This document shows, in pieces, positions 48,958 to 61,508 of a stretch of 64,000 bases of DNA; position 1 is the first letter of the stretch, and each line of letters starts with the position of its first letter. Under the pieces are notes generated by a model. The model ran no database searches and had not been told where the DNA came from. It saw nothing but the letters and a program-made list of their open reading frames with translations. The DNA is from Bacillus sp. es.036 (GTDB taxonomy: Bacteria > Bacillota > Bacilli > Bacillales > Guptibacillaceae): positions 1,178,001 to 1,242,000 of the forward strand of contig NZ_PDIZ01000001.1 in the NCBI RefSeq assembly GCF_002563635.1. Direction: 5' to 3'. The translations under genes and the position numbers were made by a program.

Positions 48958-48994
48958 AAAAACTCGTTTAGCTTAAGCTAAACGAGTTTTTTTA
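48956..48994. terminator. Bidirectional terminator between ccdC and yneK
   Basis: A near-perfect palindrome AAACTCGTTTAGC/GCTAAACGAGTTT centred on TTAA with A- and T-runs at both ends. Confidence 0.93.
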
Positions 48995-49417
48995 TTGAAG
49001 CAAATGATGATAAGGGGTCATATCGATTCGCTTTTCATCCAGTTTTTTTACGAGCCACTTATGATCTCGTTTCGGAGTCGCGATAATGTACCCCCGAATG
49101 ATTAGATCTTGAGACATGTTTTTTGCTTTTTCTCTTAGCGCAAGCTCACCTATTGTTCCTGCAATTTTATACTTCGCAATATCTCGAAACAATTCAGGTA
49201 CGGGCGAGACCAATTCATCTAAAAGTTTCTTTTGATCGCTGCTCCACATATGCTTCGTTTGTTCAATATAGTGTTCTTGCCAGTCGAGAATAGACTTGCC
49301 ATCTTCTTTAGGAAGGCGTTTTAAAAACTTCCGGAACATAAAGAATCCACCGATTGCGATCAATGAAATTAAGATTACTGTCCATCCGACGATAAACCAC
49401 TGGAACCATCCTGCCAA
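48992..49417 (-). CDS. yneK: YneK, DUF2621 membrane-anchored protein
   Basis: A 141-residue protein with one N-terminal span (FIVGWTVILISLIAIGGFFMF) and a helical soluble part (DWQEHYIEQTKHMWSSDQKKLLDELVSPVPELFRD split by turns) typical of YneK. TTG 49417 follows GAGGTG; GTG 49426 is the alternative. Conserved in spore formers, function unknown. Confidence 0.87.
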   Translation of the reverse strand: MAGWFQWFIVGWTVILISLIAIGGFFMFRKFLKRLPKEDGKSILDWQEHYIEQTKHMWSSDQKKLLDELVSPVPELFRDIAKYKIAGTIGELALREKAKNMSQDLIIRGYIIATPKRDHKWLVKKLDEKRIDMTPYHHLLQ

Positions 49418-49426
49418 CGCACTCAC

Positions 49427-50108: not shown

Positions 50109-50205
50109 TGGCGGGACTGTGTGGGAATCGAACCCACCGAAGACGGCACGCGCCTCCCAGGCGGTTTTGAAGACCGTGGCACTCACCAGACGTACAACCA
50201 GCCCC
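50109..50205 (-). tRNA. selC: tRNA-Sec (anticodon UCA)
   Basis: A 97-base selenocysteine tRNA. The anticodon loop is CTTCAAA (UCA), the acceptor GGGGCTGG pairs with ACAGTCCC (7 of 8, one G-U, with an A-G mismatch at pair 8), the T arm is GTGGG-TTCGATT-CCCAC, the variable arm is long (GGGAGGCGCGTGCC region), and discriminator G plus CCA is encoded. The long acceptor-T stack is the mark of tRNA-Sec read by SelB. It points away from selB, 495 bases from it. Confidence 0.95.
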
Positions 50206-50226
50206 GAAATATAATGTACTTCTAAT

Positions 50227-50255
50227 ATAGTAACTGAATGAATAGAAATATTCAA
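50227..50255 (-). promoter_or_regulatory. Putative promoter of tRNA-Sec
   Basis: TTGAAT, 17 bases, TACTAT on the minus strand, ending about 22 bases before the tRNA 5' end. Confidence 0.5.
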
Positions 50256-50700
50256 CGCAAGTGCTCAAATTGATTATTTCAGAAAAATAAATAGTAAACT
50301 TTGTAGTAAAGTTTTACTTTAAGGAAATTGTGCAGTTCCTTTTAGTAGAAGGTTGTCGAATAAAGTCCTATTGCAATATAAGTAGTTCGTTCTTTTGTGA
50401 AAATCGACAAAAATCGTTTTGTTTTATGAAATTCGAGTTTTCGACAAATTAACCAATAGAACAGTTTTCTATAACGAACTGATACAGTTTATAGAGTGAT
50501 ACAGGTCATAAATGAAGCTATAACAGTTTTGGCTGTGGATAGCTGTGAATAACTTTATCTTCATGCAGGATTGAATAAATATACAGGGGTGCATAAAAGG
50601 AAATTTCACTATTTTCTTAAACACAATGGTTTAAATTTGCATCCTGTACCTACATTTATTACTGTTAATAGGAGATGACAGGTGATAGGCAGGTGTAAGC
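50256..50700. other. Intergenic region upstream of selB
   Basis: About 440 AT-rich bases with no gene. It has scattered TTCGAC/GTCGAA copies and a TTGCAT-17-TACTGT pair near 50,637-50,665 that might be the selB promoter. The start of selB has AGGTG upstream. No riboswitch recognised. Confidence 0.45.
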
Positions 50701-52581
50701 ATGAACTATTATACGATTGGACTAGCGGGGCACATTGACCATGGAAAAACGACATTAACAGGCGCATTAACAGGCGTTGACACAGATCGGTTGAAAGAAG
50801 AGAAGGAACGCAACATTTCCATTGAACCAGGATTCGCACCGTTTCAACTATCTGATGATATGAAAGTGTCCATCATTGATGTTCCGGGTCATGAACGATT
50901 TATCCGCCAAATGATTGCTGGGGTTGCTGGGATTGATCTAGTTGTTCCAGTTGTCGCTGCTGATGAAGGAGTGATGCCACAAACGCGAGAACATCTTGAA
51001 ATTTTATCGCTTCTAGGTATACAGCGGTCGATTATTGCAATCACAAAAGCGGATATGGTGGAGGAAGACATGCTTTCTCTCGTGCAGGAAGATATTCTTG
51101 AATACATAAAAGGAACCGGGTTTGAGGGATCAAAGATTCATATCGTTGATGGCAAAAGTGGAAGAGGCGTTGCTGAGCTTAAGGATAGCCTTCACTCTTT
51201 TCTTATCAACACACCTTCAAGAAATAAAGCTGGAGCACTGAGGTTACCAATTGATCAAGTGTTTACTTTACAAGGCCACGGCACGATTGCACGAGGAACG
51301 ATTTTTGATGGAGAGCTAAAAGAAGGAGAACTTGTTACACTACTTCCTGATCGCTTAGAAGCGCGAGTAAGACAAATACAAACGCACAGTACAAAAGTGG
51401 AGCAAGCTTTTGCGGGCGAACGAGTTGCGGTAAACCTGACAGGACCAGATCGACAACAGATGGTTCGGGGACAAGTCATTGTTAATTCCAATTACTATCC
51501 TGTTACGTCGACCATTGATCTTTCATTTACGAAAGCTCTTACGATGTCTCATGACTTGAAACAGCGAGCTGAAGTAACGGTACACATTGGAACGGCGGAG
51601 GTAAGAGGAACGATCGTCTTCTTCGATCGCAATACGCTTGAGGCCGGGAATCGAGAAGAACTCTTCTGCCAGATTCGACTCCATGAACCTATTACCGCTA
51701 AAAAAGGGGATCGCGTTATCGTGAGACGTCCTTCACCGGTTGAAACAATTGGTGGCGGCAGTATTCTTAATGTGGCAGGAGAGAAATATAAATTTGGCGC
51801 TGAAACAATCGCGAAATTTGAACAAATGATGAAAGGGACACCAGCTGAACAGCTTGAGCAAATTCTTGAAGCGGAGCAACTGTTATCAAAAGAACAAGTT
51901 ATGCAACAAATTGGATTAAATGAGGAAGCGTTCCGCCAGCTTGAGGATGACGATCACCTTGTCTTTATCGACGGTGGTGTGACTTCACAAAATGTTTTTA
52001 CACGAGTTGTAGAAGCGATTCATAAAAATTTGCAAGCGGCACATGAACGATATCCTATGCGAAAAGGTCCACAGAAAGCGGAAGTGGTGCAGGAGTTAAA
52101 GAAAACTTATCCTAAAAAAGTAATAGATACCGTCTTGAACAATCAGCTTCAGGAAGAATTGCAACAAAAAGGGCCATATCTTTCCATGCGAGCTTTTCAG
52201 CCATCGCTGCCGGCCGCATGGAAAACGCGTATGACAAAGGTACTAAAGCATTTAGAGGAGCAAGGAGTTAACGTCTCGCCAGTAGATCGTTTAATCGATG
52301 AGGAGCAAATTCCAGATCCATATAAGACGGAGTTTAAGAACTATATGTTGGAAGAAGAGATTGCGGTTAAATTAACGGACGAGCTTTATGTGCATGATGA
52401 AAATTGGAAGCAAACCATTGCATCTTTAAAAGCGGAAACAGATCAAGCCTTTACGTTACAGGAGGCGAAAGATGTTCTTAATGTAAGTCGAAAGTATCTA
52501 GTGCCGATCCTAGAGAAGCTTGATAACGAAGGATATACCGTAAGAAAAGATCAGGAGAGATATTGGAGAGTAGAGAAATAG
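50701..52581 (+). CDS. selB: SelB, selenocysteine-specific elongation factor
   Basis: A 626-residue GTPase that carries Sec-tRNA to UGA codons marked by a SECIS hairpin. G1 is GHIDHGKT (10-17), G3 DVPGHE (60-65), G4 ITKAD (114-118); domains 2 and 3 follow to about 340. The C-terminal ~280 residues form winged helices that bind the SECIS RNA (VLKHLEEQGVNVSPVDRL, LNVSRKYLVPILEKLDNEG). Length fits bacterial SelB. It is first in an operon with the ABC transporter genes; phnD-like starts 25 bases downstream. Confidence 0.97.
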   Translation: MNYYTIGLAGHIDHGKTTLTGALTGVDTDRLKEEKERNISIEPGFAPFQLSDDMKVSIIDVPGHERFIRQMIAGVAGIDLVVPVVAADEGVMPQTREHLEILSLLGIQRSIIAITKADMVEEDMLSLVQEDILEYIKGTGFEGSKIHIVDGKSGRGVAELKDSLHSFLINTPSRNKAGALRLPIDQVFTLQGHGTIARGTIFDGELKEGELVTLLPDRLEARVRQIQTHSTKVEQAFAGERVAVNLTGPDRQQMVRGQVIVNSNYYPVTSTIDLSFTKALTMSHDLKQRAEVTVHIGTAEVRGTIVFFDRNTLEAGNREELFCQIRLHEPITAKKGDRVIVRRPSPVETIGGGSILNVAGEKYKFGAETIAKFEQMMKGTPAEQLEQILEAEQLLSKEQVMQQIGLNEEAFRQLEDDDHLVFIDGGVTSQNVFTRVVEAIHKNLQAAHERYPMRKGPQKAEVVQELKKTYPKKVIDTVLNNQLQEELQQKGPYLSMRAFQPSLPAAWKTRMTKVLKHLEEQGVNVSPVDRLIDEEQIPDPYKTEFKNYMLEEEIAVKLTDELYVHDENWKQTIASLKAETDQAFTLQEAKDVLNVSRKYLVPILEKLDNEGYTVRKDQERYWRVEK

Positions 52582-52605
52582 ATTGAAACTGAGGAGTGGA
52601 GAAAC

Positions 52606-53508
52606 ATGAAAAAAGCAATTCTTTTTATAATGGTGCTTATGCTCGGTATTCTTGCGGCATGTAGCTCGAATGAGAACGAAAATGCTTCAAACGATAATAG
52701 TGAAAAAGAAGAAGGGGCCTTTACAATTGGTGTAATCCCAGTTCAAACGGAAGGTGAAATTGAAGAAGCGATGACGAAGCTTCAAGGTGAGCTTTCAGAA
52801 AAACTTGATCGTGATGTTGAAATTACAACGTTTCCTGACTATAACGGTGTTGTGGAAGCGATGAATTATGATCAAATTGATATGGCTTATTTTGGTCCGC
52901 TTACGTATGTGATTGCGCACGAGAAAAGTGGTGCCAAAGCTATTGTGACTCAGTTGATCGACGGTGAGCCTTTCTACCATTCTTACATCATTACGAATAC
53001 AGAAAATGAGTGGGAGACGCTTGAAGATTACCTTGAAAATAGTGAGGAAAGAAGCTTTGCATTTGGCGATCCTAACTCAACATCAGGTTCATTAATTCCT
53101 TCAATAGAGCTCCAAGATCGCGATGTCTTTGAAGATCAGGATACAAATGATTTTGCTTCTGTTGCCTATACTGGCTCTCACGATGCAACAGCTTTATCTG
53201 TTCAAAATAAACAGGTTGACGCAGGCGCAATTGATAGTGCGATTTATAATCAGTTGCTCGAATCAGGGAAAATTGATGGAGACAAGCTTAAAGTGATCTG
53301 GGAATCTGAAAAGCTTTTCCAATATCCATGGGCTGTTTCTAAAGGAACGGATGAAGAGACGATTGATCAGCTACAGAATGCATTTCTAGCTATTGAAGAT
53401 GAAACGATTTTAAATGCATTTGGGGCATCAGGATTTACGAAAGCAAGTAATGAAGATTATGAGAGCATAAGAAGCGCTGCTGATAAGCAAGGGTTGTTAA
53501 CGAAGTAG
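52606..53508 (+). CDS. PhnD-like substrate-binding lipoprotein, candidate selenium-compound binder
   Basis: A 300-residue solute-binding protein. LAAC (Cys19) is the lipobox after a good signal peptide. The PhnD/PtxB family pattern is clear: FTIGVIPVQ, AMNYDQIDMAYFGPLTYVIA, FAFGDPNSTSGSLIPS, VAYTGSHDATALSVQNKQVDAGAIDS. Known relatives bind phosphonates, phosphite or similar small anions. Here the gene follows selB in one operon and is flanked by all Sec genes, so I infer a selenium anion or selenium compound as substrate. GAGGAG precedes the ATG. The substrate is not proved by sequence. Confidence 0.9.
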   Translation: MKKAILFIMVLMLGILAACSSNENENASNDNSEKEEGAFTIGVIPVQTEGEIEEAMTKLQGELSEKLDRDVEITTFPDYNGVVEAMNYDQIDMAYFGPLTYVIAHEKSGAKAIVTQLIDGEPFYHSYIITNTENEWETLEDYLENSEERSFAFGDPNSTSGSLIPSIELQDRDVFEDQDTNDFASVAYTGSHDATALSVQNKQVDAGAIDSAIYNQLLESGKIDGDKLKVIWESEKLFQYPWAVSKGTDEETIDQLQNAFLAIEDETILNAFGASGFTKASNEDYESIRSAADKQGLLTK

Positions 53509-53509
53509 A

Positions 53510-54262
53510 ATGGCCTGGTTTAAATGGAGGCACCTTATTCTATTTTTGATGGTAATTGGATTAATGGTGTGGAGCATAGGTGTTACGGAGTTTGATGTAA
53601 GGAAGTTTAGTCAATTTAACAATATGATCGATTTCCTGTCGAATTGGTTTCCGGTGAATATAGCGGTGCTTCCAACCATGTTAAAAGCAAGTCTTGTTAC
53701 ACTAGGAATGGCGTTTCTTGGAAGCTTTGTGGGTTTACTCGTTGCATTACCCATTAGCTTACTTGCTGCTAAAAATACGGCGGGCCCATTCTATGGGTCT
53801 GCGCGTGTTGGTTTAAGTTTCGTTCGGTCGATTCCAGAAATCGTATTAGGGTTAATGTTTCTTACGATTGTTGGACCTGGACCATTTGCGGCAACGATTG
53901 CGATCATCGTTCATAATGCGAGTGTTCTCTCTAAATTAATTGCAGAATTAATTGAAGCGGCTGATAAAGGCCCTCAGGAGGCTATGAAGGCAGTTGGGGC
54001 AAGACCGCTAACAGGCGCGTTATTTTCAGTCTTTCCTCAAATTTGGCCGAACGTCCTGTCGCATTATTTTTATCGATTTGAAGTGGCGATTCGAACTTCG
54101 TTAATGCTCGGTTTAGTTGGCGGGGGAGGAATTGGACAGCAGTTGTTTGTTCATTTTAAAACATTCCAATACTCGACCGTTGCGGTTGATGTGATGCTGA
54201 TTATGATCATTGTCATTGTCGTTGATTTTCTCGGAAGTAGGGTGAGGCAATATGTCATGTAA
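53510..54262 (+). CDS. PhnE-like ABC transporter permease
   Basis: A 250-residue permease with about six spans. The cytoplasmic EAA loop is EAMKAVGARPLTGALFSVFPQIWPNVLSHYFYRFE, split across helices, and FVRSIPEIVLGLMFLTIVGPGPFA is typical of PhnE. Its ATG lies one base after the stop of the binding protein and no strong ribosome site is present, so translation is coupled. One permease forms a homodimer in this family. Confidence 0.92.
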   Translation: MAWFKWRHLILFLMVIGLMVWSIGVTEFDVRKFSQFNNMIDFLSNWFPVNIAVLPTMLKASLVTLGMAFLGSFVGLLVALPISLLAAKNTAGPFYGSARVGLSFVRSIPEIVLGLMFLTIVGPGPFAATIAIIVHNASVLSKLIAELIEAADKGPQEAMKAVGARPLTGALFSVFPQIWPNVLSHYFYRFEVAIRTSLMLGLVGGGGIGQQLFVHFKTFQYSTVAVDVMLIMIIVIVVDFLGSRVRQYVM

Positions 54263-55007
54263 CGAAGCGTTGTTAACGGTTGAGAATGCATCCGTGCGCT
54301 ATCAAAATGCTGAATCTTATGCGTTAGATCATGTTTCTCTCACCTTTCAAAGGGGCGAATTTGTTTGTATATTAGGAAAAACGGGCGCAGGTAAGTCAAC
54401 GTTCATTCGGACGTTAAATGGTCTGCAATCTTTAACGGAAGGCGACATTATTTATAATGGTCGTTCTTTCCAAACGCTCGATCGAGAAGGGTTAAGAAGG
54501 CAAAGGCGAAGTATGGGGATGATTTTTCAGCATCATCAGTTGATTCCTCGTTTAACGGTCATGCAAAACGTCTACACGGGTTTATTCGGTTCTCGATCAA
54601 CCATTCGCAACCTGGCTGGCTTATTTAATGAAAGTGAAAAAAAACTTGCAAGAGACGTTATCGAACAAGTTGAACTACTTCCTCATTTAAATAAGCGGGT
54701 AGATTTATTGAGTGGAGGGCAAAGGCAACGTGTTGGTATTGCCCGGGCACTTGCTCAATCGCCTGATATTTTTCTTGGAGATGAGCCTGTCGCAAGTCTT
54801 GATCCAGGTACAGCAAATCGCATTTTTCAACTCATTCACCGTTTGCATGAGGAGCGGAACTTATTAACGATTATAAACGTTCATGATGTCAAACTAGCGA
54901 AAAGATATGCCTCTAGAATTGTGGCATTAAAAGAAGGTCGCGTCGTATTTGATGACCGACCAGTAGCGCTTACTGAGGAGTTAGAAGATATGCTGTATGA
55001 ACTATAA
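54252..55007 (+). CDS. PhnC-like ABC transporter ATPase
   Basis: A 251-residue ATP-binding subunit: Walker A GKTGAGKST (42-50), Q-loop FQHHQ, signature LSGGQRQRVGIARA, Walker B IFLGDEP and an H-loop INVHD. It overlaps the permease gene by 11 bases with GGGTGAGG inside the overlap. It closes the selB-transporter operon, followed by a strong terminator. Confidence 0.94.
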   Translation: MSCNEALLTVENASVRYQNAESYALDHVSLTFQRGEFVCILGKTGAGKSTFIRTLNGLQSLTEGDIIYNGRSFQTLDREGLRRQRRSMGMIFQHHQLIPRLTVMQNVYTGLFGSRSTIRNLAGLFNESEKKLARDVIEQVELLPHLNKRVDLLSGGQRQRVGIARALAQSPDIFLGDEPVASLDPGTANRIFQLIHRLHEERNLLTIINVHDVKLAKRYASRIVALKEGRVVFDDRPVALTEELEDMLYEL

Positions 55008-55043
55008 AAAAGGAAGTTGGGGATTCCCCAACTTCCTTTTTTT
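55005..55043. terminator. Bidirectional terminator between transporter and selD
   Basis: AAGGAAGTTGGGG/CCCCAACTTCCTT stem with an ATT loop, and A7/T7 flanks. It ends both convergent units and overlaps the selD stop. Confidence 0.95.
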
Positions 55044-56091
55044 ATTTGCTTGCGGTGATCGCAAATGCACCTTTGTCATTAACGTGACCGACAATGTAAG
55101 CTGATTTCCCTTTAGCATTCATCCGTGATACATATTCATTCGCTTCATACTCAGGCAAGCTAATTAATAGGCCACCAGAAGTTACCGCATCACATAAAAT
55201 GAATTGCTCAAGTTCTGTGAGGTTTTCGTATCTGACAGATTCAGCAATCCAGCGGTGATTTGCTTTTGATCCACCAGGGATATAACCTTGCTCCGCTAGC
55301 TCAACAGTGCCAGGTAAGATAGGCACATTGTTATAGTCGATCTGAATGCTAACGTTGCTTCCGGTTGCCATTTCAAAAGCATGTCCGAGTAAACCGAAGC
55401 CGGTGACATCTGTTACAGCATTAGGTGTTAGACCTGATAGTTCTTCAGCTGCGGTTTTATTTAACTCAGCCATCGTTTCTGATACGCGCTGAAGCTGTTC
55501 AGCGGTTAACTTTTCAGGTTTAATGGCAGTTGTTTGTATGCCAACGCCAATAGGTTTTGTTAACACGATCGCGTCTCCCGGCTTAGCGCCAACGTTCATA
55601 TGGATTTCATCTGGATGAACGAGACCTGTCACAGATAAACCAAACTTTGGCTCCTGATCATCAATAGAGTGTCCTCCGGCAGTAACAGCCCCTGCTTCTT
55701 CAACTTTATCAGCAGCGCCTTTCAAAATTTCTGCAAGGATGGAAGGGTCTAAAGATTTGATCGGAAAACCGACAATATTAAGAACGGTTTTCGGAACTCC
55801 ACCCATTGCATAGACATCGCTTAATGAATTGGCCGCTGCAATTTGACCAAACATATATGGATCATCAACGATAGGTGTAAAGAAGTCTACCGTTTGAATC
55901 ATGGCGAGTTCATCAGTTAGGCGGTACACGCCTGCATCATCGGAGGTTTCCACACCGACAAGTAAATTAGGATCATTTTTCTTATTAGGTAATTGACGCA
56001 AAACTTGCGTCAGGTCCTCAGGACCGATTTTGCATCCTCAACCACCTTTTGTCGATAGGGATGTTAAACGGATGTTTTCTGGATTTGACAT
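55042..56091 (-). CDS. selD: SelD, selenide-water dikinase, itself a selenoprotein (UGA at codon 18)
   Basis: A 349-residue enzyme making selenophosphate from selenide and ATP. The frame from ATG 56091 reads LTSLSTKGG, then TGA (56040-56038), then GCKIGPEDL, matching the SelD active-site loop where Sec or Cys precedes GCK. After it come LVGVETSDDAGVY, AAANSLSDVYAMGG and AGGHSIDD, all normal. So UGA is selenocysteine 18 and SelD needs its own product for synthesis. Standard gene calling splits it into a 5' stub and a frame from TTG 56001. GGAGGTGG precedes the ATG. A promoter TTCAAA-17-TATACT lies at 56139-56111. Confidence 0.95.
55998..56040 (-). promoter_or_regulatory. Putative SECIS element of selD
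   Basis: On the minus strand, 15 bases after the start of UGA, hairpin GGTCC-TGA-GGACC (56025-56013) rests on a lower stem GCAAAA/TTTTGC (56033-56028 with 56003-55998). Bacterial SECIS hairpins lie just after the UGA like this and often have a GGUC in the apical part. Confidence 0.75.
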
Positions 56092-56186
56092 ATTACCACC
56101 TCCTACCATGAGTATAAATCTTTTCTTCGTATTTTTGAAATGATATAGTATGTACAACTTGAAATTCATTAGAGGAGGTAGCCTAA
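56092..56186. promoter_or_regulatory. Divergent promoter region for selD and the SelW-like gene
   Basis: The 95-base gap holds the selD promoter TTCAAA (56139-56134), 17 bases, TATACT (56116-56111). For the plus strand a TAGTAT near 56,146 may be a -10, but no clear -35 is seen. AGAGGAGGT is the ribosome site of the SelW-like gene. Confidence 0.55.
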
Positions 56187-56432
56187 ATGAAGTATCATGT
56201 AACGATCGAATTCTGCATGCAGTGAAACTACGCTCCAAAAGCCGCGAGTTTCGCGGAAGCATTATTTAACCATTTCAGACAGGAAATTAGTTCGCTAGAA
56301 ATGATACCTGGTTCTGGTGGTGTGTTTGAAGTGACGGTAAATGATCAGCAGATGCATTCAAAAAAAGAATTAGGTCAATACCCGGAAGTAGAATCATTTA
56401 TTAAGAAAATGGAAAGCAGAACGTTCGAGTAA
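56187..56432 (+). CDS. SelW/Rdx-family selenoprotein with CxxU motif
   Basis: An 81-residue selenoprotein whose 13th codon is TGA (56223-56225). Translation reads MKYHVTIEF-CMQU-NYAPKAASF. The C-x-x-U redox motif at the end of the first strand, followed by Y.P.A..., is the signature of the thioredoxin-like SelW/Rdx family; GSGGVFEVTVNDQQMHSKK provides the rest of the fold (GGxFEV, then F/S-KK). Function is a small thiol/selenol redox protein, partner unknown. AGGAGGT lies six bases before the ATG. Any annotator treating UGA as stop would miss this gene. It precedes selA by 47 bases on the same strand. Confidence 0.93.
56223..56260 (+). promoter_or_regulatory. Putative SECIS element of the SelW-like gene
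   Basis: Starting 16 bases after the UGA, CCGCGA-GTT-TCGCGG (56242-56256) is a perfect six-pair stem with a three-base loop, flanked by GC pairs. Position and size fit a bacterial SECIS hairpin. Confidence 0.7.
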
Positions 56433-56457
56433 GGCACCCCGTTCAGGGTGCCTTTCG
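56433..56457 (+). terminator. Hairpin between the SelW-like gene and selA
   Basis: GGCACCC/GGGTGCC with a CGTTCA loop and TTTCGTTTC. It may partly end the SelW-like transcript, leaving selA at lower level. Confidence 0.7.
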
Positions 56458-56479
56458 TTTCGATATAGGAGTTGAGAGT

Positions 56480-57871
56480 TTGAAATTACTTAGAGAATTA
56501 CCCCCGATTCATCAAATTCAAGAAGCGATGCTGAAAGAGAACATAGGGAGCGACCTCCCTCAGAAGCTTCTCAAACAAATGGTCCAACAGGAAGTGGACG
56601 AGCTTCGTGGCGCTTTACTAAAGGAAACGTATACCGGACATGCTCAAGATCGCCATGGTTTTCAAGTTGAAATTATAGCAAGCGTGAAAGAAAAATTAAC
56701 GCGAAATGCTTTTAATTTAGTGCCGGTTATTAATGCAACCGGTGTCGTCCTACATACGAATCTTGGAAGAGCGAGATTAAGCGATGCTGCAATAGAGCAT
56801 ATGATTGAAGTAGCCAAAAGTTACTCCACCCTCGAATATAACCTCACAGAAGGACGGCGAGGCTCCCGACACACCATTGTTGAAGAAGCGGTTTGCAAGG
56901 CAACAGGGGCAGAAGCAGCTATGATCGTCAATAACAATGCTGCAGCTGTTTTCATGATTTTGAGCGCCCTTGCAAAAGAAAAGGAAGTGGTTGTGTCACG
57001 AGGCGAACTCGTTGAAATTGGCGGATCCTTTCGGGTTTCTTCAATAATGGAAGAGAGTGGGGCGCGCTTGAAGGAAGTAGGCACCACGAATAAAACGCAT
57101 CCTGCTGACTATGAACAAGCTGTGAATGATGAAACGGCGATGTTAATGAAAGTGCATCGTAGCAATTTTGCCATTGTTGGTTTTACGGCAGAAGTAGAAC
57201 GCGAGCAATTAGCATCCATTGCAAAAAAACAACAGGTCATTTTTTACGAGGATTTAGGAAGTGGCGCATTGTACGATTATCGAAAAGATGGTATTGGAGA
57301 AGAGCCTACTGTTCAAGAAACGCTTGCTGCTGGTGCAGACTTAGTATCTTTTAGTGGTGATAAGCTCCTTGGTGGCCCGCAGGCAGGTATTATCGCTGGT
57401 AAGAAAGAACTTGTCGATCGGTTGAAGAAACATCAGCTGGCACGTGTATTACGCGTAGATAAGTTTACTCTTGCTGCTCTTGAGGCAACCTTACTCGAGC
57501 ATTTGTATGAAGAAGCAAACAATATCCCTGTGATCAGAGATATTACGGTATCGCCAGAAGAGGTGCGAAAGCGTGCACTTCAGTTCAAAGAAAAACTTGA
57601 AACGAAGTGTTCGCATTATCAAATTGATGTGGAAGTGGGTGTTTCCCAAGTTGGTGGCGGGACCATGCCTGCGGTTGAATTGCCAACATCTGTTGTTGTC
57701 ATTCGAACTGGCCGTTTCAGTGTGAATGAACTTGAAGAAAAGCTTCGAATGCGTCATCGCCCAATCATTACCCGTATTAAGGATGAAAAAATTCTAGTTG
57801 ACCTTAGAACTTTAACGAAAGAAGAAGAAGAAGTGCTTTTAAGCGAATTGATGAACATATGTAACGAGTAA
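56480..57871 (+). CDS. selA: SelA, L-seryl-tRNA(Sec) selenium transferase
   Basis: A 463-residue PLP enzyme that turns Ser-tRNA-Sec into Sec-tRNA-Sec with selenophosphate. VINATGVVLHTNLGRA (84-98), TLEYNLTEGRRGSR (117-130) and the PLP lysine Lys295 in FSGDKLLGGPQAG are exactly placed; Lys295 has the same number as in E. coli SelA. TTG 56480 follows AGGAGTTGAG. Use of the one-step SelA route, not PSTK/SepSecS, is normal for bacteria. Confidence 0.97.
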   Translation: MKLLRELPPIHQIQEAMLKENIGSDLPQKLLKQMVQQEVDELRGALLKETYTGHAQDRHGFQVEIIASVKEKLTRNAFNLVPVINATGVVLHTNLGRARLSDAAIEHMIEVAKSYSTLEYNLTEGRRGSRHTIVEEAVCKATGAEAAMIVNNNAAAVFMILSALAKEKEVVVSRGELVEIGGSFRVSSIMEESGARLKEVGTTNKTHPADYEQAVNDETAMLMKVHRSNFAIVGFTAEVEREQLASIAKKQQVIFYEDLGSGALYDYRKDGIGEEPTVQETLAAGADLVSFSGDKLLGGPQAGIIAGKKELVDRLKKHQLARVLRVDKFTLAALEATLLEHLYEEANNIPVIRDITVSPEEVRKRALQFKEKLETKCSHYQIDVEVGVSQVGGGTMPAVELPTSVVVIRTGRFSVNELEEKLRMRHRPIITRIKDEKILVDLRTLTKEEEEVLLSELMNICNE

Positions 57872-58796: not shown

Positions 58797-61508
58797 ATGG
58801 CAAATCACGAACTTTATAATTCCAAAGCAACATTCGATGCCAATGGTAAATCATACTCCTTCTATCGTCTTCAGGCGTTAGAAGAAGCAGGCATCGCTAA
58901 GGTAAGCAAGCTCCCTTACACGATCAAAATTTTGCTCGAATCCGTGTTACGTCAGTATGACGGTAAAGTAATTAAAGAAGAGCACATTGAAAATCTCGCT
59001 AAATGGGGAACTAGCGAGCAAAACAAAGATATTGACGTACCATTTAAACCTTCACGCGTTATTCTTCAAGATTTCACAGGCGTACCTGCTGTTGTTGACC
59101 TTGCGTCACTTCGTAAAGCAATGGCTGATATCGGCGGAGACCCTGATAAAATCAACCCTGAAATCCCAGTGGATCTTGTTATTGACCACTCGGTACAGGT
59201 TGATAAATACGCATCAGACGATGCACTTGAATTTAATATGAATAAAGAATTTGAACGTAACCTTGAGCGTTATAAGTTCCTTAAATGGGCTCAAGATGCT
59301 TTTGATAACTATCGTGCCGTTCCACCGGCAACTGGTATCGTTCACCAAGTAAACCTTGAGTACGTTGCGAACGTTGTTCAAGAAAATACAGTTGATGGCG
59401 AAAATGTTGCCTATCCAGATACATTATTCGGAACTGACTCCCATACAACCATGATCAACGGTCTTGGTGTTCTTGGATGGGGTGTTGGTGGTATTGAAGC
59501 TGAAGCTGGTATGCTAGGTCAGCCTTCTTACTTCCCAGTTCCTGAAGTAATCGGTGTGAAGCTTACTGGAGAACTTCCAAGCGGAACAACAGCAACGGAT
59601 CTTGCGCTAAAAGTGACTCAGCTTCTTCGCGAGAAAAAAGTTGTTGGGAAATTTGTTGAGTTCTTCGGACCAGGGCTATCTGGCATGCCTCTTGCTGACC
59701 GTGCAACAATTTCCAATATGGCACCAGAGCAAGGTTCTACATGTAGCTTTTTCCCAGTTGATGAAGAAGCACTTGAATACATGCGCCTAACTGGTCGCTC
59801 TGAAGAGCACATTAACCTTGTGCGTGAATACTCAATCGCTAACGGATTGTTCTACACACCAGAATCAGAAGATCCTGAATTCTCAAGCGTTGTTGAACTT
59901 GATCTTGGAACAGTAGAACCAAGTCTTGCTGGTCCTAAGCGCCCACAAGATCTGATTCTTCTTTCAGATATGAAAAAAGAGTTCAATAAAGCAGTCGTTG
60001 CCCCTCAAGGTAACCAGGGTCTAGGTATGGATAAGAAAGAATTCGATAAGGAAGCTGTTGTTAAATTTAACGACGGAAAAGAAGTAACGATGAAAACAGG
60101 TGCAGTTGCGATCGCAGCGATTACAAGCTGTACAAATACTTCAAACCCTTCCGTTATGCTTGGTGCGGCTCTTCTTGCGAAGAAAGCTGTTGAAAAAGGA
60201 CTACAAGTTCCTGAATACGTGAAAACAAGCCTTGCGCCAGGATCTAAAGTCGTAACAGACTACCTTGATAAGTCTGGACTAATGCCTTACCTAAGAGACC
60301 TTGGTTTCCACCTGGTTGGCTACGGATGTACAACGTGTATCGGTAACTCCGGTCCACTGAAAGAAGAGATTGAAGATGCGATTGCGAAGAGCGATCTTAC
60401 GGTGACTTCTGTTCTTTCAGGTAACCGTAACTTTGAAGGACGTATCCACCCACTAGTAAAAGCAAACTACCTTGCTTCACCACCGCTTGTCGTTGCTTAT
60501 GCACTTGCTGGTACTGTAGATTTCGATCTTCATTCTGATTCATTCGGTAAAGATAAAGATGGAAACGACGTTTACCTAAGCGATCTTTGGCCATCACCTG
60601 AAGAAGTGAAAGAAGCCGTTGCTGAAACAGTAACACCAGAAATGTTTAAGCGTCAGTACAAAACTGTATTCGACGAAAACAAACGTTGGAACGAACTAAG
60701 CACAAGTGAAGGAGATCTTTATAACTGGGACGATGAGTCTACTTATATTCAGAACCCTCCATTCTTCGAAAATCTTTCTAAAGATCCAGAAGATATTCAT
60801 GAGCTTAAAGATCTAAGAGCAATCGCGAAGTTTGGTGATTCCGTTACAACGGACCACATTTCTCCAGCTGGTGCCATTGCAAAAGATATGCCTGCAGGGC
60901 AATATCTACAAAATAATGGCGTTCGCCCAATTGACTTTAACTCTTACGGATCACGTCGTGGTAACCACGAAGTTATGATGCGCGGTACGTTTGGTAACAT
61001 TCGTATTCGTAACGAAGTAGCTCCAGGCACTGAAGGGGGCTGGACAACATTCTGGAACACGGATGAAGTTATGCCGATTTATGATGCAGCAATGAAATAC
61101 AAAGAAGAAGGAACAGGTCTAGTTGTTCTTGCTGGTAAAGACTACGGCATGGGAAGTTCACGTGACTGGGCTGCTAAAGGAACAAACCTTCTTGGAATTA
61201 AAACGGTTATTGCAGAAAGCTACGAAAGAATTCACCGTAGTAACCTTGTATTGATGGGTGTGCTTCCACTTCAATTTAGAGATGGCGAGACTGCAGATAC
61301 GTATAACCTTACTGGTAAAGAAACGTTTGCTGTTGAAATCACAGAAAACGTGAAACCACGTGATGAAATTAACGTAACGGCAACATCTCCAGAAGGCGAA
61401 ACGCAAACATTTAAAGTACTTGCTCGTTTTGATAGTGAAGTTGAAATTGACTACTATCGCCACGGCGGTATTCTTCAAATGGTTCTTCGCGATAAAATTG
61501 CAAATTAA
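58797..61508 (+). CDS. citB: CitB, aconitate hydratase (aconitase)
   Basis: A 903-residue TCA-cycle enzyme interconverting citrate and isocitrate. The [4Fe-4S] Cys ligands are in [11 protein letters not shown] and [13 protein letters not shown]; swivel domain motifs [15 protein letters not shown] and ERIHRSNLV are intact. ATG 58797 after GGAGGAGGG is used. In Bacillus the apo-form binds iron-responsive RNA. Codon use here is strongly biased, as expected for a highly expressed gene. Confidence 0.98.

Follow-up and report, generated by a model that had tools for sequence, protein, structure and literature searches.

SelF, of the DedA family, and FdhT are reported selenium transporters of Campylobacter jejuni (PMC11237541), YedE was predicted to be one from its genome context (PMC5322559), and an ABC (ATP-binding cassette) transporter-related ATPase has been noted near orphan selD genes (PMC5029168). 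A dedicated selenium importer is called an unidentified function in two further recent papers (PMC9312934, PMC11097638). We describe here a selenocysteine (Sec) locus in a 64,000-nucleotide stretch of the Bacillus sp. es.036 genome (the window), in which the genes for Sec decoding enclose a PhnD/E/C-type ABC transporter. We consider it probable that this is an old, vertically inherited Sec locus beside a gene that we take to be citB, and that it carries its own importer for a selenium oxyanion, most likely selenite. The importer, and not the Sec block, is the interesting part of the locus. Our literature search turned up no report that connects a PhnD-type transporter to SelD in Bacillota, within a coverage that excluded most subscription journals.

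On co-occurrence and genomic context, the transporter is a strong candidate for an importer dedicated to selenium. We surveyed a sample of the host order comprising 397 genomes from 135 genera, and defined close homologues of the substrate-binding protein (SBP) by at least 48% identity and E <= 5.4e-80, the next row standing at 36% and 1.5e-43; in its own genome the SBP has one match at E <= 1e-20. A close SBP is present in 98 of the 397 genomes, and SelD is present in all 98 of these versus 121 of the 299 others, counts that are uncorrected for relatedness. In a control group of 72 genomes with only distant PhnD-type matches, by comparison, SelD is missing from 20. SelA is found in 91 of the 98. 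One genus (f39, taken as Jeotgalibacillus) includes seven close-SBP genomes that have SelD, lacking an in-frame stop, together with MnmH and no SelA, while in the three genomes of this genus tested without a close SBP, SelD gave no match and no MnmH scored above its cut-off; where SelD and the SBP lie on one contig (six genomes), they are 20 to 51 kb apart. In seven Paenibacillus loci, the transporter stands beside a SelD with Cys at the Sec motif. This arrangement is in keeping with a transporter whose tie is to SelD and not to Sec itself.

In at least 70 of the 98 genomes, a listed SelD, SelA, or SelW lies no more than 10 kb from the SBP, and the transporter is linked to selB or selD in differing orders in several families. 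A scan of named genomes, restricted to the best 80 of at least 564 matches and overlapping the order sample, found SelD no more than 8 kb away in 61 of the 80 loci and any selenium gene in 63. Among the remaining 17, from which the neighbor genes of 11 were scanned, the selenium metabolism-associated LysR regulator NF040786 exceeds its cut-off in two (L143 and L162), and three more have a gene homologous to that of L143; the same regulator is over the cut-off beside the transporter in L080 as well, and homologues of it occur in three further loci.

A family 4-type glycosyltransferase (L055:2839-3867 and relatives), absent from the window locus, neighbors selD/phnDEC in many genera (25/39 and 38/80 loci), often together with a PdaB-like polysaccharide deacetylase (10/39 and 29/80). 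One member (L075) scores 89 bits against the SenB selenosugar synthase model, whose cut-off is 300, and a selenosugar-type pathway is possible on this resemblance. In two Alkaliphilus loci, a seryl-tRNA synthetase gene immediately precedes the phnDEC homologues (572 bits in L153; a homologue by clustering in L155).

Several observations nevertheless weigh against selenium as the cargo. The permease and ATPase pass the phosphonate equivalog cut-offs for PhnE and PhnC (Table 1), so automatic naming would yield a phosphonate transporter. The SBP fails the "putative selenate" SBP model TIGR04553 (186.8 < 250), and we rejected membership of that family. Its pocket follows the pattern of a phosphite binder, and a phosphorus compound would be compatible with the sequence. 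The 72 control genomes with only distant PhnD-type matches comprise 52 with SelD and 20 without, a group richer in SelD than the whole sample (219/397), for which relatedness may explain part. SelD is present without a close SBP in 121 of 219 genomes, so the importer is not needed for selenium use as such. Finally, 12 of the 80 named loci showed no sel gene or LysR gene within 8 kb among the neighbors scanned, which were not all of them; these belong to Jeotgalibacillus (2), Melghirimyces (2), Alkaliphilus (2), Salipaludibacillus (3), Anaerobacillus, Natroniella, and a Bacillus metagenome-assembled genome.

These points bear on the best-surviving alternative, an importer of the usual phosphite or phosphonate kind placed by chance inside the sel block, with phosphite as the main alternative substrate. 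The closest solved structures of the SBP include PtxB and PhnD. The Te_PtxB study lists Y55, Y100, S130, T131, S132, and H160 as oxygen ligands, Y208 as the capping residue, and D22 as the residue that stabilizes the cap (PMC5700983). The ligands and capping Tyr align to Y79, Y124, S158, T159, S160, H192, and Y240 of the SBP and do not vary in any of 43 sequences, which favors a phosphite importer; Asp22, however, is replaced throughout (A in 22, V in 12, S and T in 4 each, and Q in 1). The SBP likewise falls below the PhnD phosphonate model TIGR03431 (204.4 < 261.1), and no phosphonate enzyme was found among those neighbors that were scanned at unlinked loci. Chance placement also fits poorly with the unbroken co-occurrence with SelD, which extends to the seven genomes lacking SelA, with the linkage to selB or selD in different orders across several families, and with the selenium LysR regulator that adjoins the transporter in some loci. 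We therefore regard a phosphite or phosphonate importer as unlikely, and prefer a selenium oxyanion as cargo. The conserved oxyanion-binding residues count for such a cargo too, and selenite, a near-isostere of phosphite, is its most likely form.

Among 80 genomes hand-chosen from the 397, TIGR04553 exceeds its cut-off in 6 of 40 that have SelD without a close SBP, in 0 of 27 with a close SBP, and in 0 of 13 without SelD; the numbers are small, and all six positive genomes have SelD. This distribution is in keeping with one importer having been replaced by another. A broader proposal, whose prospects we judge evenly balanced, is that the transporter is a dedicated, high-affinity selenite importer of Bacillota, derived from the phosphite/phosphonate family and serving whichever selenium trait the host possesses (Sec, 2-selenouridine, or both), with TIGR04553-type systems substituting in some relatives without it. 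With its delimited set of genes, its phylogenetic signature, and a prediction for the pocket, this family opens the question of how bacteria take up trace selenium to direct testing.

The roles of SelA, SelB, SelD, and tRNA-Sec are known from their families, and the following route may be proposed. The lipoprotein would catch a selenium oxyanion, most likely selenite, for import by the permease and ATPase; the cell would then reduce it to selenide, a step that we infer. SelD, itself a selenoprotein, would make selenophosphate, SelA would load the selenium onto Ser-tRNA-Sec, and SelB would read the hairpin behind each UGA and place Sec in both SelD and the SelW-like protein. The host genome also has MnmH over its cut-off (318.6 bits), so selenium probably enters tRNA too.

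The components of the locus were called with the curated cut-offs of NCBIfam (TIGR) and Pfam profiles, the Rfam gathering score, and ARAGORN for tRNA (Table 1). The profile scores of the sel genes and tRNA-Sec rule out chance, and selA, selB, selD, and tRNA-Sec, the full Sec-decoding set, are all over their cut-offs. The first-pass annotation had placed tRNA-Sec, selB, selD, a SelW-like gene, and selA in the block at 50109-57871, between yneK and sspP. These genes are present there, as a complete decoding set between yneK and citB; its gene list was correct for the sel genes and missed both the Sec in SelD and the embedded PhnD/E/C-type transporter.

Table 1. Features of the Sec locus and its left neighbor, with positions in the window and model scores in bits
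Feature	Position	Strand	Support
DUF2621 gene, left neighbor	48992-49426		Match to DUF2621
tRNA-Sec	50109..50205	-	ARAGORN anticodon TCA; Rfam RF01852 59.4 > gathering 47; 3' CCA encoded
selB, Sec-specific elongation factor, winged helices at C terminus	50701..52581	+	TIGR00475 361.1 > 242.25; Pfam SelB-wing_2, SelB-wing_3
PhnD/PtxB-type substrate-binding lipoprotein (SBP); proposed selenium-oxyanion (selenite) binder	52606..53508	+	TIGR01098 (phosphate/phosphite/phosphonate-type SBP superfamily) 223.7 > 112.05
PhnE-type ABC permease, same importer as SBP	53510..54262	+	TIGR01097 232.3 > 216.7
PhnC-type ABC ATPase, same importer as SBP	54252..55007	+	TIGR02315 275.4 > 266.1
Terminator-like hairpin between convergent phnC-type gene and selD	55006..55042	.	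Stem of 17 pairs with T run
selD, selenophosphate synthetase and a selenoprotein	55042..56091	-	TIGR00476 416.1 > 125; TGA codon 18, KGGUGCK
bSECIS-type hairpin (bacterial Sec insertion sequence) behind selD UGA	55995..56011	-	6 bp stem, AGUUU loop
selW-like Rdx selenoprotein	56187..56432	+	TIGR02174 68.9 > 34.2; Pfam Rdx 76.5 > 22.6; CMQU motif (CxxU)
bSECIS-type hairpin behind selW UGA	56242..56256	+	5 bp stem, AGUUU loop
selA (Sec synthase; starts at TTG)	56480..57871	+	TIGR00474 565.1 > 267.9

We take the DUF2621 gene on the left to be yneK and, by eye, a short minus-strand frame to the right of the block to be sspP; the gene that begins at 58797 is presumably citB. The phnD-type gene follows selB by 24 bp, the next gap is 1 bp, and the phnE-type and phnC-type genes overlap (52606-55007), so the transporter genes look like one transcription unit with selB. 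A scan for terminator-like sites found 7, versus a shuffle mean of 7.5, and thus no enrichment. A short, GC-rich inverted repeat at 56431-56454, between the selW stop and selA, might attenuate selA, although it is not among the sites listed by that scan.

The Sec cluster itself is of an ordinary, known kind, and it is commoner than was first thought. The first-pass annotation had described Sec use as rare in Bacillaceae, a view that the order sample does not support: SelA occurs in 181 of the 397 genomes and in 67 of the 135 genera, and all 15 genomes of the host family have a SelA match free of internal stops. Sec decoding is thus common in the host order, and it is accompanied by a SelW-like protein, which was found in 165 of the 181 genomes with SelA and in 0 of the 216 without. 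A single genome of the 181 (G279) lacks a SelD match, and its SelA match is among the weakest (1.9e-103).

Retention, with losses elsewhere, explains the data better than acquisition in this lineage. The order yneK, tRNA-Sec, selB, phnDEC, selD, selW, selA, citB is shared by all 13 of the other genomes in the genus, with tRNA-Sec found at the locus in each. The sister genus, represented by one genome, has selB-selW-selA at the same place, with selD-phnDEC and tRNA-Sec elsewhere. Across several families, citB lies 191 to 1757 bp from selA in 48 of 71 SelA stretches; these 48 hold 41 different SelA sequences, and the named and unnamed collections from which they come overlap. SelA distances correlate with CitB distances (Mantel rho 0.566; 0 of 999 permutations), and in trees of the 41, which contained no Clostridia, the host family forms one clade for both SelA (96/90) and CitB (100/100). 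The place beside citB and the SelA and CitB trees thus point to vertical retention.

The first-pass annotation had offered acquisition as a unit or retention of an ancient block, and had proposed comparing the yneK-citB interval among relatives. A recent horizontal acquisition of the whole block into a clean yneK-citB site could account for its compactness and for the short interval in some relatives: a full-length CitB match is present in 45 of 45 genomes lacking SelA, the 20 of these that were inspected have no sel gene in the 9 kb before citB, and yneK lies 301 to 5352 bp from citB in 10 of the 20, compared with 9.4 kb in the window. That short interval, however, fits loss too, and recent transfer is difficult to reconcile with an arrangement common to all 13 other genomes of the genus, with selA beside citB in several other families, with SelA distances that track those of CitB, or with a host family that is one clade in both trees. 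We consider recent transfer very improbable and, of the two possibilities originally raised, retain the ancient block. Within the genus, the sel genes evolve fast: SelA is 62 to 95% and SelB 63 to 98% identical, compared with 92 to 100% for CitB and 80 to 99% for YneK.

From its ATG, selD can be translated in full only by reading the single TGA at codon 18 (KGG-U-GCK) as Sec, which makes SelD a selenoprotein too; a mechanical open reading frame from an internal TTG at 56001 misses the Sec site. A search of 140 stretches that required a stop codon at the motif returned 61 hits for selW (45 different) and 100 for selD (69 different), the stop being TGA in all of them, and Cys occupies the SelD motif in the seven further loci, all from Paenibacillus. 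Without that requirement, an in-frame stop is present in 20 of 20 SelW and 17 of 17 SelD sequences. Among the matches listed for the order sample, every SelW has the TGA and every SelD has one TGA inside it. The refuting condition set in the first-pass annotation, relatives that keep the machinery while lacking UGA-containing homologues, is therefore not borne out by these sets. SelD proteins free of UGA nevertheless occur in two groups: the Cys-containing proteins beside the transporter in the seven Paenibacillus loci, and the seven SelA-less genomes, also carriers of the close SBP, in which SelD has no in-frame stop.

A bSECIS carries a G in the first two loop positions. In the 48 or 58 bases taken from each UGA, the selW hairpin is paired in 100% of cells, with 16 cells changed on both sides (45 different sequences), and the selD hairpin in 99.8%, with 10 changed on both sides (69 different sequences); 0 of 500 shuffles match either. 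The first selD hairpin (GGUCC-GGACC) was weaker (89% paired and reached by 33 of 500 shuffles), and we therefore took the second as the bSECIS. A covariance model built from 35 hairpins (R1), with which 150 of 722 first-look genome candidates were scored, gave eight matches in the whole genome, led by selD (33.5 bits) and selW (33.0 bits). The other six, at five places, have no convincing UGA frame, although hairpins of other types would escape this model; one of these six (L185) is a 221-codon frame with a UGA end followed by a terminator-like hairpin. We rejected a Sec-dependent formate dehydrogenase as what the machinery is kept for, since FdhA in this genome (a match of 831 bits) shows no in-frame stop. 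The apparent users of Sec in the host genome are SelD and the SelW-like protein, with the proviso that hairpin types other than R1 would be missed. That the machinery is a relic, kept and not used, might be read from the finding of only two UGA genes followed by a hairpin of this type and from the FdhA without a stop, but is most improbable of all given hairpin stems kept by compensatory change, stops retained in every SelW and SelD examined without the search requirement, and a SelA match free of internal stops in all 15 family genomes.

Set beside the bacterial Sec-decoding system as it is generally known, the locus shows no difference in kind: all parts are present and over cut-off, and each hairpin stands behind its UGA with a G within the first two loop positions. 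What is particular to it is a long-kept site beside citB and an embedded ABC transporter. The SBP resembles the phosphite-binding protein PtxB (PDB 5jvb, 5lq1, and 5o2j) in its oxygen ligands and capping Tyr, and differs from it in the residue at cap position 22 and in having selenium genes as its genomic partners. It belongs to the same SBP superfamily as TIGR04553, an NCBIfam hypothetical equivalog, and shares its STS-H signature; a TIGR04553 member from another family of the order (L050:2538-3407; 327.6 > 250), encoded ~7 kb from selA, is 30% identical to it. The NF040786 regulator, which adjoins the same transporter in L080, L143, and L162, is not part of the block here, where no LysR gene was found among the genes scanned. 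The ATPase noted near orphan selD genes may be related to the present transporter (PMC5029168). SelF and FdhT, by test, and YedE, by context, are tied to selenium supply, as is the importer proposed here; FdhT is described as unrelated to SelF, and SelF and YedE are membrane proteins of other families, whereas the window system is a binding-protein-dependent ABC importer.

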